A stretch of 64,000 nt of DNA from Bacteroidia bacterium (GTDB lineage Bacteria; Bacteroidota; Bacteroidia; J057). The notes under the pieces are model-generated. The model worked only from the letters and a program-made list of their open reading frames with translations. It was not told the origin of the DNA and ran no database searches. The position numbers and the translations under genes are program-made. The stretch spans positions 1 through 64,000 of the forward strand of contig JAIBAH010000002.1 of assembly GCA_019695295.1 (NCBI GenBank), given 5' to 3'. Shown in pieces: positions 2,543 to 9,578 of this stretch (position 1 is the first letter of the stretch; each line of letters starts with the position of its first letter).

Positions 2543-3196
2543 ATGGAAAATTCACCAGCCGCATATGTGGTATTTTTTTTGGCTTATGGGGCTTCAATGC
2601 TTGCTTTTAGTTTCAGGTCTATTTATTTGCTCAGGATTTTTACCATTATTGCCTCCAGCCTGTATGCTATATACTATTTCGTATTTCCTGTCTCACCTAT
2701 GTGGATTGATATTATTTCGGAGTCTGTACTGGTACTTCTGAATGTGGGGATGTTGTTGTATTTAACCTACTCACAAAGTCAGGTGAGTTTTACTACAGAG
2801 GAAAAAGAACTCTATGATGGTATATTTTATCGTTTGTCTCCTTTTGAGTTTTTTAAACTTATGAAGCTGGCCAAATGGAGTTCTTTCAACTCTCAGGAAA
2901 AACTGATAGAAAAAAATAAGAAAGTAAAAGGTATTTATTTGATATACAGTGGAGAAGCACACGTTATTAAAACAGAAGACAAAACAATTATCCTTAAGGA
3001 TGGCGCATTCATCGGTGAATTAAGTTTCAATTCCGGTAATCTGGCAAGTGCAGATATTTATGTTCAACCTTTGACAAGGCTCATACACTGGGATCAGAGA
3101 GATTTAATGGATTTCCTCAACCGCAATCCTTCCACCAAGGAACAATTTAACGCCATTATCACAGACGATTTAGCGAAGAAACTGGTAATTAGCTGA
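2543..3196 (+). CDS. Popeye-like membrane protein with cyclic-nucleotide-binding-type domain
   Basis: 217 residues. Three hydrophobic segments (about 6-24, 28-48 and 55-78) are followed by a cyclic-nucleotide-binding-fold domain (about 95-217). The order and details match vertebrate POPDC proteins: a short N-terminus, three membrane spans, then a domain whose end reads TRLIHWDQRDLMDFL...DDLAKKL, resembling the POPDC pattern CR-x-x-x-W-x-R-x-x-L-x-x-F-L...I-x-x-KL. The usual phosphate-binding cassette Arg of CAP/PKA domains is absent; the loop reads FIGELSFNSGNLASADI. Animal POPDC proteins bind cAMP. Ligand and role here are unknown. It stands alone, flanked by gaps of more than 300 bases. Confidence 0.75.
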   Translation: MENSPAAYVVFFLAYGASMLAFSFRSIYLLRIFTIIASSLYAIYYFVFPVSPMWIDIISESVLVLLNVGMLLYLTYSQSQVSFTTEEKELYDGIFYRLSPFEFFKLMKLAKWSSFNSQEKLIEKNKKVKGIYLIYSGEAHVIKTEDKTIILKDGAFIGELSFNSGNLASADIYVQPLTRLIHWDQRDLMDFLNRNPSTKEQFNAIITDDLAKKLVIS

Positions 3197-3517: not shown

Positions 3518-4240
3518 ATGAAAAATGGATTTATTTTTACAATTTATCTTTTTCTTATTCCGATAAATTTAAAGAGTCAGATTACTGTATTCCGTTACCC
3601 CAGCCCGGTTTTATACAAATATTGTAATAATCCTGTTCTTTTTACTGAGGTTTGTGACAGGCAAATCGAGGTAGATTATGTGTTTGAAGGGGGCAAAATA
3701 GAGATTTCGGATAACAACAGGTTGCATATTCGCCTTTTTCCCATGGATGATTCTTGTTTTTTGACAATTTTTGAACCCAAGAAAGGGTTTAATCAATTCA
3801 TTATGAGGATGAAATGTAAGGTACTCGAACCGCCTGCGCCGTATATTGAGGTCAAACCCAAAAATAAAAGTACTGCTTTTATGCAAGACACGTTGAATTT
3901 GAAAGTAGCCGATACTTTAATGATTAAGGTTATTCCTGACCCCCAATTTGCGTTCAATCTTCCCAATGAAATTCAATACAGGCCTGAAAAAATTATAATC
4001 GAGTTGCTTCCCAATTCTATCAACAAACAAGGGAACCCCCCAAAAACTGAACAGATAAACATCCTGAACAAATGGGAAAACAATCAGGTAGAATGGGTAA
4101 TTCCCTTGAGTTATTTGAATACAAGCTTTATATTGTATGTCAATGATTTGCACCGCACCGATTCACAGTCGAATAGCAAACCTGTATCCAGTACCTTTTA
4201 TTTTGAGAATAGCAGAAAAATAGTTGTGCATATAAAATGA
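3518..4240 (+). CDS. Secreted GldM-like protein, first of a tandem pair
   Basis: 240 residues with an N-terminal signal peptide (MKNGFIFTIYLFLIPINLKSQ). The mature protein starts with a segment about a VLYKYCNNPV strand, then a beta-rich domain ending in MKCKVLEPPAPYIEV, then a second domain with VIPDPQFAFNLP. The layout (strand, hairpin, a K/R-x-PDP linker, a final beta domain) resembles the periplasmic C-terminal domains of GldM, the type IX secretion and gliding motor subunit. The GldM transmembrane helix and coiled coil are missing. It shares that layout with the next gene, which it overlaps by ATGA, so the two are probably translationally coupled. GldM relationship is an inference. Confidence 0.55.
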   Translation: MKNGFIFTIYLFLIPINLKSQITVFRYPSPVLYKYCNNPVLFTEVCDRQIEVDYVFEGGKIEISDNNRLHIRLFPMDDSCFLTIFEPKKGFNQFIMRMKCKVLEPPAPYIEVKPKNKSTAFMQDTLNLKVADTLMIKVIPDPQFAFNLPNEIQYRPEKIIIELLPNSINKQGNPPKTEQINILNKWENNQVEWVIPLSYLNTSFILYVNDLHRTDSQSNSKPVSSTFYFENSRKIVVHIK

Positions 4241-4962
4241 GGAAATACCTTTTAGCCCTTCTTTTGGGTTTTAGTATATTGGCAATGTATGGTCAAACCC
4301 CTTTTTTTCTGCAAAAAGGGACAGAAAATCATGTATTATATAGAATGTTTTCCAATGATATTTGGTTATATACGTCTAATATTTGCGAAGATTTACCTTT
4401 TGAAGTAAAGGTTTCTGACGCTACTTTCTGGCAAAATCCGGTAGAGAAAAGACACCTTCAAATTATCCCCCGTGGTCCCAAAGTGAAAATAGAAATGCAT
4501 TATTATAATACAACCGGAAAAGAAATTTACCTGGAAAAAACACTTATGGTAATTGACCCTCCCGGGGAATATTATCAATTTGCAGTAGATGGGAAATGGA
4601 TAAATCGCCATGATATTCCCATTGATAAAAACAGTAAAATTACCTTTAGGATTGTGCAAGACCCTGAGTTTAAAACACTAATGGGGTTGCAGGCGGATTA
4701 CCGTGTGGATAGTATCTGGATTACAGTTTTACCTCCCGATAACCATCCGCCTGTACATATTAAAGGCATAGGTTTTGATATACATCAGCCGCAAGGCATT
4801 CTTTCTATTCCCTTGCCTCTAAAGTGTTTTGCTTATGGTTCCGGTACTAAAATTTTTGCAGAAGTTGGGAATGTTTATCGGAGGAATGAAAAAGGGGAGT
4901 GGGTGGATTTTTTTGTTAGAGCAAGCATGTATGACAGAACAGGCATTTTTGTGGTAAAATAA
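4237..4962 (+). CDS. Secreted GldM-like protein, second of a tandem pair
   Basis: 241 residues, signal peptide MRKYLLALLLGFSILAMYGQ. It starts inside the stop codon of the upstream paralogue (ATGA at 4237-4240). The N-domain has HVLYRMFSNDIWLYTSN, comparable to the NVLYIGVDNP strand of GldM. It continues to a LMVIDPPGEYYQF linker and a last domain with IVQDPEFKTLMG and DSIWITVLPPDN, which parallels IIIELLPNS in its partner. Both lack membrane helices beyond the signal peptide. A role at the cell surface or in the periplasm is likely; anything more specific is guesswork. Confidence 0.55.
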   Translation: MRKYLLALLLGFSILAMYGQTPFFLQKGTENHVLYRMFSNDIWLYTSNICEDLPFEVKVSDATFWQNPVEKRHLQIIPRGPKVKIEMHYYNTTGKEIYLEKTLMVIDPPGEYYQFAVDGKWINRHDIPIDKNSKITFRIVQDPEFKTLMGLQADYRVDSIWITVLPPDNHPPVHIKGIGFDIHQPQGILSIPLPLKCFAYGSGTKIFAEVGNVYRRNEKGEWVDFFVRASMYDRTGIFVVK

Positions 4963-7057: not shown

Positions 7058-8731
7058 TTAATTCCCTCTTTCAAAAAAGATAAATCCTCCCTTTTCATTT
7101 TTTTTCCGAAACAGAGAAAGCTGTGATTCATATTCCGGAGTGAGTAAAATATTTTTAGTAGCCAGATAAACGGGTTTGTCAGGGTCTCCGTTAACCAGCC
7201 AGTCTTCCCGGTACGCATTTGGGTTAGTGTGAGGCTTGACTTTTCCATAAAATAAATGCAGGTAACTTTTATATCTTCCGGTGACAAGATAGACATCCTT
7301 TCCGGCCTGCGCCTCAAAAAAATCCTGGGCTGAACCCTGAGTATATCGGGCAATACCCGGAAGCATTATTTTATACTGAGCATTTACAAAAAACAAGGTA
7401 AGTGCCACCTGAAGGTATAAAAAACTAATGAATCTCCTTTGAACGAGATGACCCGCATTAATAATCAGCCCAATCAGAAAAAGGGTACCGGCCAGCCACT
7501 CAAATCCGGACCATTGTACATCCATTGTCAGGTTCCCTCTTGCTACAGGGTCTTTAATATAAGGAATGATTAAATCAAGATGGTTGATAATCAGATTAAT
7601 ACAGGATGGCGCAACTCCCCAAAGCAAAATGCCGGTAATATAGATGAAAAAAGAATCCCATTTGATTTTTTCCTGATTACGAATGAGGTTTTCTATATAT
7701 AATGCACTGATAAAAGCCGCAGGGAAATACAGCATCGAACTATAATGCACAATTTTGGTTTTGGATATCGAAAAAATAATCATCACTACCCAGAACCAGA
7801 CGAACATGATTTTCTTCAGATACTGGTCTTCACGCTGATTGTATTGGGTCATCATCCCCCTGTAAACAAAAACCGACATAGGAAAACAACCCAGCGTAAA
7901 AACAAGAAAATGATAGTAAAACGGCTGTTCGTGTCCGGCAACCGGTTGCGTTAGCAATTCCCACTGATATCGGATAAAATTTTCCAGAAAAGTGCTACCG
8001 TGAGCCATTGTTTCCGCTCCATACCATAAAGAAACAGTAATCAGCATGGAAAGAAGCATTTTTCCGATAAACCCCCATGCAAAACGGTGTTTATTTACCC
8101 AAACCGAGAAAATAAAGTAAGACAGACCCGTAATCAGAATTGCAGCAGGGCCTTTGGTCATTACTGCCAATCCCAGCCAGATTCCAGTAATCCAGGGCGA
8201 AAATCCTTCCGTTTGGTTGTTTCTTTCAAAGGTTTCGAAGTGATAAATCCGGTATATAGCCAAAAAAATCAAAAAATTAAAAGAAGGGTCAATAATTCCG
8301 GATTTAAAATAAATGACAGGCAGGAGGGAGCAAAGATACAGGCAGGCCAGAATTCTCCCAAACAAACGCCCTTTAAGCTGAGTTCCGGTAAGATACAAGG
8401 TGAGAATCGTCAGGATACCGGTAAGCGCATTCGGAAACCGTGCCCCAAACTCATTGATTCCAAATATTTTCATAGATAAACACTGAAGCCAGATAAATAA
8501 AGGAGGCTTCTCAAAAAAAGGCTGGTAATTAATCTGAACCTGAAGGTAATTGTCGCTTTCTATCATCTCTCTTGCACATTCTGCAAAATTGATTTCGTCC
8601 CAGTCTAACAGAGGTGCTGCGCTTAAAAATAACGGAAAGCCTGTTACGGTAAGAATCAAAAAGAAAAAAAAGTCTCCGGTTATCAGACCAAAGGGGTTTT
8701 TTACAGGAACAGGCGGTTGTTTGTCAATCAT
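7058..8731 (-). CDS. GT39-type (ArnT/PMT-like) membrane glycosyltransferase
   Basis: 557 residues with about ten or more hydrophobic spans. Near the N-terminus, LLDWDEINFAECAREM carries the acidic DE pair in the first large external loop, followed by FEKPPLFIWLQ and GARFPNALTG. This is the signature of ArnT-like enzymes that move a sugar from a polyprenyl phosphate onto lipid A, protein or another acceptor on the outer face of the inner membrane. The C-terminal soluble part (KDVYLVTGRYKSYLHLFYGK) is typical. I start it at MIDKQPPVPV (8731) because the longer frame runs through the divergent gene's leader. A TAATTTTG box on the minus strand (8766-8759) could serve it. Acceptor unknown. Confidence 0.85.
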   Translation of the reverse strand: MIDKQPPVPVKNPFGLITGDFFFFLILTVTGFPLFLSAAPLLDWDEINFAECAREMIESDNYLQVQINYQPFFEKPPLFIWLQCLSMKIFGINEFGARFPNALTGILTILTLYLTGTQLKGRLFGRILACLYLCSLLPVIYFKSGIIDPSFNFLIFLAIYRIYHFETFERNNQTEGFSPWITGIWLGLAVMTKGPAAILITGLSYFIFSVWVNKHRFAWGFIGKMLLSMLITVSLWYGAETMAHGSTFLENFIRYQWELLTQPVAGHEQPFYYHFLVFTLGCFPMSVFVYRGMMTQYNQREDQYLKKIMFVWFWVVMIIFSISKTKIVHYSSMLYFPAAFISALYIENLIRNQEKIKWDSFFIYITGILLWGVAPSCINLIINHLDLIIPYIKDPVARGNLTMDVQWSGFEWLAGTLFLIGLIINAGHLVQRRFISFLYLQVALTLFFVNAQYKIMLPGIARYTQGSAQDFFEAQAGKDVYLVTGRYKSYLHLFYGKVKPHTNPNAYREDWLVNGDPDKPVYLATKNILLTPEYESQLSLFRKKNEKGGFIFFERGN

Positions 8732-8813
8732 GAACAAATTGTTTTGTAAATTTGCCCGCAAAATTACATATTTCCGGCTAAATTGTTTAAACAGAAAATT
8801 AATAAATCCAAAA

Positions 8814-9578
8814 GTGAAATTTACTTTTTTAGGTACAGGCACATCTCAGGGAGTCCCGGTAATTGCATGCCCTTGTCATGTCTGTAATTCAAATGATTAC
8901 AGAGATAAAAGACTGCGCACTTCCGGTATGCTTACGGACGGTGAAACCACGGTTGTTTTTGATACAGGGCCTGATTTCAGGCAGCAGATGCTGAGAGAAA
9001 AAGTAAAGGTACTGGACGGCGTTATCTTTACGCACCCTCACAAGGATCATACCGCAGGACTGGATGATGTAAGGGCGTTTAATTTTCTCCTCGAAAGGGA
9101 GATGGATGTTTATGTCAATGATATTACGCTGGAAAGCCTCAAAAGAGAGTTTGCCTATATTTTTGAGGAAAATAAATACCCGGGAGTACCCAATATCAAT
9201 GTTTCTGAGATAAAGTCATTTCAGAAATTTTCTGTCGGAAAGATTCAGCTGTTGCCGGTAGAAGTAATGCACCATAAAATGATTGTACTGGGTTTCAGGG
9301 TGAAAAATTTTGCTTACATTACAGACGCTAATTTTATCCCTCTTGATACGATGAATCATCTGATGAGACTGGATGTGCTTGTAATCAATGCTCTCAGAAT
9401 ACAAAAACACATTTCCCACTTTAATCTGGAAGAAGCCCTTGGAGTAATCAGGGAGCTGAATCCCCGTAAAGCTTATCTTACACACATCAGCCATCTTATG
9501 GGTACTCAGGAAGAAGTAAGCCGCCTGCTGCCTTCCAATGTAGAGATAGCCTATGACGGACTTACGATAGAATGCTGA
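8814..9578 (+). CDS. PhnP-like metallo-beta-lactamase-fold hydrolase
   Basis: 254 residues. It begins MKFTFLGTGTSQGVP from a GTG codon at 8814, the usual opening of this family; the open frame extends further upstream but has no family-like sequence. A zinc-type C-x-C-x2-C cluster (IACPCHVC) and the metal-binding THPHKDHTAG motif are present, and a later histidine lies in AYLTHISHLMG. PhnP cleaves cyclic phosphodiesters (5-phosphoribosyl 1,2-cyclic phosphate in phosphonate users); with no phosphonate genes nearby the true substrate is open. TTTG at 8720 and TAAATTTG at 8747 form a promoter candidate with a long 23-base spacer. The next gene is convergent, 10 bases away. Confidence 0.85.
   Translation: MKFTFLGTGTSQGVPVIACPCHVCNSNDYRDKRLRTSGMLTDGETTVVFDTGPDFRQQMLREKVKVLDGVIFTHPHKDHTAGLDDVRAFNFLLEREMDVYVNDITLESLKREFAYIFEENKYPGVPNINVSEIKSFQKFSVGKIQLLPVEVMHHKMIVLGFRVKNFAYITDANFIPLDTMNHLMRLDVLVINALRIQKHISHFNLEEALGVIRELNPRKAYLTHISHLMGTQEEVSRLLPSNVEIAYDGLTIEC

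Follow-up and report, generated by a model that had tools for sequence, protein, structure and literature searches.

The open reading frame at positions 2543-3196 of the window (the whole 64,000-nucleotide stretch of Bacteroidia DNA analysed here) encodes a protein that, as supported by profile comparisons, is a full-length bacterial relative of the animal Popeye (POPDC) proteins, membrane proteins that bind cAMP in heart and muscle; the homology extends from the membrane part through the linker into the soluble domain. We consider it fairly probable that this protein functions as a cyclic-mononucleotide receptor anchored in the membrane, the ligand most probably being cAMP, which would be made by a cyclase and, in many relatives, removed by the product of an adjacent phosphodiesterase gene, and that the receptor regulates a partner protein. 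This reading is based on the full-length homology, the predicted fold of the cyclic nucleotide-binding domain (CNBD), the conserved Gly-Glu pair in its cassette, the co-occurrence with cyclases and the adjacency to phosphodiesterase genes. Against it stands the absence, in every member of the family, of the cassette arginine that normally holds the cyclic phosphate; the DSPE and FQVT motifs of POPDC are missing as well.

The predicted protein and its relationship to POPDC

The frame, located on the forward strand, runs from ATG to TGA over 217 codons and is a real gene under purifying selection. Its copy in a second MAG, named Saprospiraceae (locus L003/L056), is 80% identical to it at both the DNA and the protein level, with the differences falling mostly in third codon positions (31, 17 and 83 by position; dN=0.10, dS=1.20, dN/dS of about 0.09), whereas the 300 bp flanking the two genes on each side show no detectable similarity; a chance frame is thereby ruled out.

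Of the features that had been proposed from the sequence alone, the three N-terminal membrane spans are borne out by hydropathy as well as by an AlphaFold2 model (mean pLDDT 89.2), which also shows the CNBD fold behind them. In this model, predicted membrane helices occupy residues 5-23 (positions 2555-2611), 27-47 (2621-2683; L30-R31 is invariant in 29/29 family members) and 54-79 (2702-2779). Linker helices (residues 85-109, positions 2795-2869), which lie within the PF04831 match and are also covered by the family profile, lead from the membrane part to the beta-roll of the CNBD (residues 111-184, positions 2873-3094), and C-terminal helices follow (residues 185-216, positions 3095-3190). 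Foldseek searches with the predicted structure recovered the CNBDs of HCN, CRP and PKA-R at E of about 1e-9, and no direct POPDC structure was among the PDB matches shown, by sequence or by Foldseek. The C-terminal pattern quoted as POPDC-like is present in the form TRLIHW (R179...W183), LMDFL and DDLAKKL. Judging from the charge pattern, the N-terminus is probably outside the cell and the CNBD in the cytosol.

In Pfam searches, the window protein scores 38.1 bits (E=2.1e-9) against PF04831, the POPDC1-3 model (curated cut-off 28.1 bits), and 33.6 bits against PF00027, the cNMP_binding model (cut-off 27.5 bits); in the whole-genome search, the PF04831 score of the gene drops to 28.9 bits. When parts of the protein are searched separately, residues 1-112 match PF04831 only (27.5 bits, E=3.7e-6), residues 84-217 match PF00027 only (35.2 bits, E=1.2e-8) and leave PF04831 unmatched, and residues 1-83 give no significant Pfam match (E=0.16), so that the POPDC signal comes from the membrane part, the linker and the C-terminal end jointly. 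On its own, the soluble domain resembles a generic CNBD; it is the complete protein that passes the PF04831 cut-off.

Given the generic appearance of the soluble domain, a profile built from 26 bacterial relatives, all of which match both PF04831 (with up to 59.6 bits) and PF00027, was run against human POPDC1. The query was a working version of the human sequence, which agrees with the published length of 360 aa and with D200, S201, E203 and V217 and scores 155.9 bits against PF04831. The profile aligned with residues 42-263 of this POPDC1 sequence at 68.4 bits (E=8e-19 in a 20,000-sequence search), and both pieces of it were significant when taken alone, namely residues 42-150, comprising the membrane part and the linker (35.7 bits, E=8e-9), and the CNBD piece (27.8 bits); reversed POPDC1 and 200 shuffled versions produced no match to the profile at E<=10. 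Similarity in the membrane-linker part is found both with PF04831 and with the family profile. The window protein taken singly is not significantly similar to this POPDC1 sequence (phmmer E=0.19), and the link to POPDC therefore rests on the family profile.

The same profile matches many CNBD structures, including those of PKG, PKA-R, HCN and CRP, and in the best 60 of these matches, the matched stretch starts at profile position 88 at the earliest, that is, covers only the soluble half. The match over the membrane part and linker is therefore specific to POPDC, and the interpretation of the protein as a generic CNBD and nothing else is rejected. Chance or hydrophobic bias can be dismissed as the source of the PF04831 match as well, given that none of the 14 control genomes matched and that shuffled and reversed POPDC1 remained scoreless; PF04831 matches that were found chiefly through the membrane-linker part proved to carry a CNBD too. 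No placement of animal POPDC in a tree is claimed because the human branch is too long and is represented by a single sequence, the working version described above.

Three membrane helices, a linker helix, a CNBD fold and a C-terminal helix thus align with POPDC1-3 over the full length, and the canonical phosphate-binding arginine is lost in both groups. Unlike POPDC1-3, the bacterial protein lacks the glycosylated extracellular N-terminus (about 27-39 residues) and the long variable C-terminal tail: in the model, it starts about 4 residues ahead of helix 1 and stops after the C-helix. It also lacks DSPE and FQVT, the cassette motifs of POPDC, in place of which it has FIGELSF...SADI and retains Gly-Glu; among the 29 members, the cassette reads F-[IVL]-G-[ED], and DSPE is found in none. 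We therefore regard these proteins as a homologous bacterial branch rather than as POPDC in the strict sense; the gene product probably works like POPDC in outline.

Distribution and genomic company

The gene is not a lone bacterial copy but belongs to a family. PF04831 matches were detected in 23 of the 345 sampled Bacteroidota genomes (about 7%), in 5 of the 199 genomes of the Planctomycetota sample, and in Chlorobiales, Chloroflexales and Omnitrophota MAGs, adding up to four phyla besides Bacteroidota. Within the window's own family, the gene is missing from all 12 other genomes sampled, two of them from the same genus. Whereas the nearest copy is 80% identical, the chorismate synthase and the S1-type protein of its host are only 39-47% and 51% identical to those of the window genome (the corresponding values within the window's family are 59-69% and 64-67%). 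Considering also the dissimilar flanks, the window copy was probably gained by horizontal transfer as a single gene, although a misassigned short MAG contig may be an alternative explanation; the GC content of the gene is unremarkable. An origin as a phage or plasmid gene was discarded: there were no phage matches, and the plasmid matches were at the CNBD level only, some of them annotated as antiporters. Two family members have unusual gene structures. At L040:7528-8320 (G309), the POPDC-like gene is spread over two overlapping frames, which indicates a frameshift or an assembly error, and at a contig end, L062:1-1188 (G561), the last 67 residues of a 396-aa open frame match the POPDC-like membrane region, so that either a fusion or a truncated contig is possible.

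Class III cyclases (PF00211) are encoded in all 23 POPDC-bearing Bacteroidota genomes compared to 162 of the 322 genomes without POPDC (Fisher p=6e-7 by genome and 0.013 by genus, kinship being ignored in both tests); the association is weaker by genus because such cyclases are common in the phylum. A second association is with an Apyc1-like enzyme, close relatives of which are present in 14 of the 345 Bacteroidota genomes; of these, 11 are among the 23 POPDC genomes and 3 among the 322 others (p=3e-12 by genome and 2e-8 by genus, again ignoring kinship). In eight loci from the Bacteroidota families f46, f48 and f56, the immediate neighbour of the POPDC-like gene encodes an MBL-fold protein about 276-282 residues long. 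The two genes are co-directional, with a gap of about 23-70 nt, in L046, L047, L052 and L055; they are arranged tail to tail with a 4-nt overlap in L045, L048 and L049, and tail to tail about 90 nt apart in L050. Hence the description of the gene as free-standing is accurate for the window and not for about a third of the relatives, which adjoin a phosphodiesterase gene.

The adjacent gene likely encodes an Apyc1-like cyclic-nucleotide phosphodiesterase. The three members that were scanned score 93-122 bits against PF23023 (Anti-Pycsar_Apyc1; cut-off 50), the THSHxDH signature containing the HxHxDH metal motif is invariant in 8/8 of the neighbour enzymes, and there are only three PDB matches at E<=1e-10, two of which are named Apyc1. 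Apyc1 and its relatives in phages and bacteria hydrolyse a broad range of cyclic mononucleotides, and related MBL enzymes of B. subtilis favour cAMP and cGMP (PMC9117128). In the tree, the POPDC-like genes with an Apyc1 link cluster in related groups, and the linkage may therefore reflect few events.

Apyc1-like genes are also found without POPDC. In each of the three POPDC-lacking genomes, which belong to a single genus, one copy comes right after the gene of a response-regulator class III cyclase, forming a cyclase-phosphodiesterase operon (L096:6463-8573, L097:7422-9743 and L098:7021-9271, in G312, G320 and G378), and a second Apyc1-like copy is located elsewhere in the genome. The upstream cyclase carries EKIKTMGD and YDLWGDTVN, the Lys/Asp pair of which we take, as a substrate call by motif, to be of the adenylyl-cyclase type. 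A different recurrent neighbour, a gene of the ABC_sub_bind family (PF04392), is found in four loci from different families, where it closely follows the POPDC-like gene (L005:2358-3365, L042:6282-7247, L043:613-1683 and L044:6173-7228). Other genes in the vicinity of the relatives encode ornithine carbamoyltransferase, pantoate ligase and MutS, and the gene order around the POPDC-like gene is conserved within a family.

The window gene itself has neither a cyclase nor a phosphodiesterase gene beside it, and no close Apyc1-like gene was found in the window genome in the search of the 345 genomes. Its neighbours, which include a Reg_prop beta-propeller protein, an outer-membrane barrel protein and two secreted-type proteins, are uninformative with respect to cyclic nucleotides; the last two (3518-4240 and 4237-4962) are adjacent, about 240 aa each, and lack a confident Pfam match. 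An MBL gene at 8694-9575 of the window was considered as a linked phosphodiesterase and discarded because it matches PF12706 and not Apyc1. The single class III cyclase of the window genome, which has nine CNBD matches in total, is a response-regulator cyclase encoded away from the POPDC-like gene (G000:C42), next to a CNBD-patatin protein whose CNBD keeps the arginine (GEFALFTGAARSATV). In that cluster (L073:4975-7852), two histidine-kinase-like genes and the gene for an NTE-type patatin phospholipase, whose CNBD is canonical, precede the cyclase gene; the arrangement is likely to be a cAMP-controlled phospholipase operon.

As to which nucleotide is sensed, a question raised from the sequence alone, the genomic company of the family favours a cyclic mononucleotide, with cAMP as the likeliest candidate, over a cyclic dinucleotide.

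The binding cassette and alternative readings

The phosphate-binding-cassette position, FIGELSFNSGNLASA, covers residues 156-170 (positions 3008-3052). Column counts over 29 family members, with the phosphate-arginine column 168 set by alignment to HCN2, in which it is occupied by Arg, show that F156, G158, A170 and K213 are invariant (29/29) and that E159 is present in 28 of the 29 members. Column 168 contains A in 17 members, P in 7, T in 4 and N in 1, and never Arg, so that of the canonical cNMP-binding elements, the Gly-Glu pair is present and the phosphate arginine is absent in the window protein (A168) and in 29/29 members; the loss that had been noticed by eye extends to the entire family. 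Compared to the canonical CNBDs (HCN C-linker/CNBD, CRP/CAP and PKA regulatory subunits; PF00027), the fold and the cassette Gly-Glu are shared, whereas the arginine is missing and the membrane-linker part has no counterpart. Because the canonical Gly-Glu is kept, the bacterial members may represent an intermediate stage between the ordinary CNBD and the DSPE cassette of animals.

One hypothesis suggested by the conservation pattern is that the invariant Lys213 of the C-helix (codon 3179-3181), which aligns with K260 of POPDC1 in the working human sequence, helps replace the missing arginine. In a model of POPDC2, Arg263 of the partner subunit lies near the cyclic phosphate (PMC12256823), so that a basic residue near the C-terminus acting in this role has a precedent, albeit with a residue other than K213.

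A different resolution, which we regard as rather improbable, is that the CNBD-fold receptor has switched to an uncharged or otherwise different ligand, such as a nucleoside, as in the trypanosome PKA regulatory subunits. The near-complete retention of Gly and Glu combined with the universal replacement of Arg by A, P, T or N fits this possibility, and the kinetoplastid PKAR, which swapped the same arginine for V, T, A or N, all small neutral residues, bind nucleoside analogues (PMC6440977); the PKAR entry 6ftf, with the cassette GELELMYDTPVVA, is among the PDB sequence matches. However, the second kinetoplastid hallmark, Glu at the position of mammalian PKAR Ala202, is seen in only 3 of the 29 members at the presumed column 161 (S or A in the other 26), the kinetoplastid proteins consist of soluble tandem CNBDs, and the link of the bacterial family to a cyclic-mononucleotide phosphodiesterase and to class III cyclases argues against a nucleoside ligand. 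To our knowledge, no phosphodiesterase linkage exists for the kinetoplastid PKAR.

CNBD homology domains that bind no nucleotide exist, and the domain could be a ligand-free structural or scaffolding module, as in potassium channels of the EAG/ERG type; EAG/ELK channel domains are indeed among the structural and sequence matches, and the loss of the phosphate arginine fits this view. This option also appears unlikely to us, considering that the invariance of F156, G158 and A170 and the presence of E159 in 28/29 members across phyla are hard to explain without a ligand and that the family is associated with a phosphodiesterase.

Pycsar effectors of the PycTM type combine membrane helices with a CNBD, as does the window protein, but its identity as a PycTM-like anti-phage effector sensing cCMP or cUMP, despite the Apyc1-type neighbours and some weak matches in PADLOC, namely to the CNBDs of PycTIR and PycC (E 5e-5 to 1.5e-3), is highly improbable and was rejected, since these matches are confined to the CNBD, the PycTM model is unmatched, no PycC or other cyclase gene adjoins the window gene, and the relatives' neighbours are ordinary genes in an order conserved within a family, unlike typical defence islands.

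Proposed function and significance

Under the cyclic-mononucleotide receptor reading, the three membrane helices would tether the CNBD in the cytosol, where it would bind a ligand, most probably cAMP, produced by class III adenylyl cyclases; its source in the window genome would be the single response-regulator cyclase, encoded elsewhere. In many relatives, the Apyc1-like MBL-fold phosphodiesterase encoded next door would remove the ligand. Ligand binding is predicted to alter a putative dimer or the membrane part, and this change could in turn regulate a partner protein, much as POPDC1 regulates the channel TREK-1 and adenylyl cyclase 9 (AC9). The animal protein binds AC9 and reportedly interacts with PDE4, and TREK-1 leaves the complex in response to cAMP (PMC9724675). 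Adenylyl cyclase and cNMP phosphodiesterase accompany both groups, as interacting proteins in animals and as genes of the same genomes in bacteria, which is a striking parallel. A bolder proposal, which we put forward tentatively and deem doubtful, is that bacteria possess an equivalent, or the forerunner, of the animal POPDC scaffold of membrane cAMP receptor, adenylyl cyclase and phosphodiesterase. It would consist of a receptor paired with a phosphodiesterase and linked to class III adenylyl cyclases, and the receptor would bind cAMP despite lacking the canonical arginine, perhaps via K213.

Reviews of POPDC describe a family of animals and one protozoan and regard the Popeye domain as exclusive to POPDC proteins; no papers on bacterial POPDC were found in the literature searched, the coverage of which excludes most subscription journals. 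Because the bacterial proteins pass the Pfam cut-off, databases may already list them as PF04831 members. According to the same reviews, the biochemical activity of the Popeye domain is poorly understood, and there was no experimental POPDC structure as of 2025. A small, tail-free bacterial homologue of about 215 residues, amenable to bacterial expression, would be a tractable model in this respect, and several genomes offer a two-gene pair of a POPDC-like protein and a likely cyclic-nucleotide phosphodiesterase. Such a homologue would make testable both ligand binding by a CNBD that lacks the canonical arginine and the passage of the signal to the three membrane helices.
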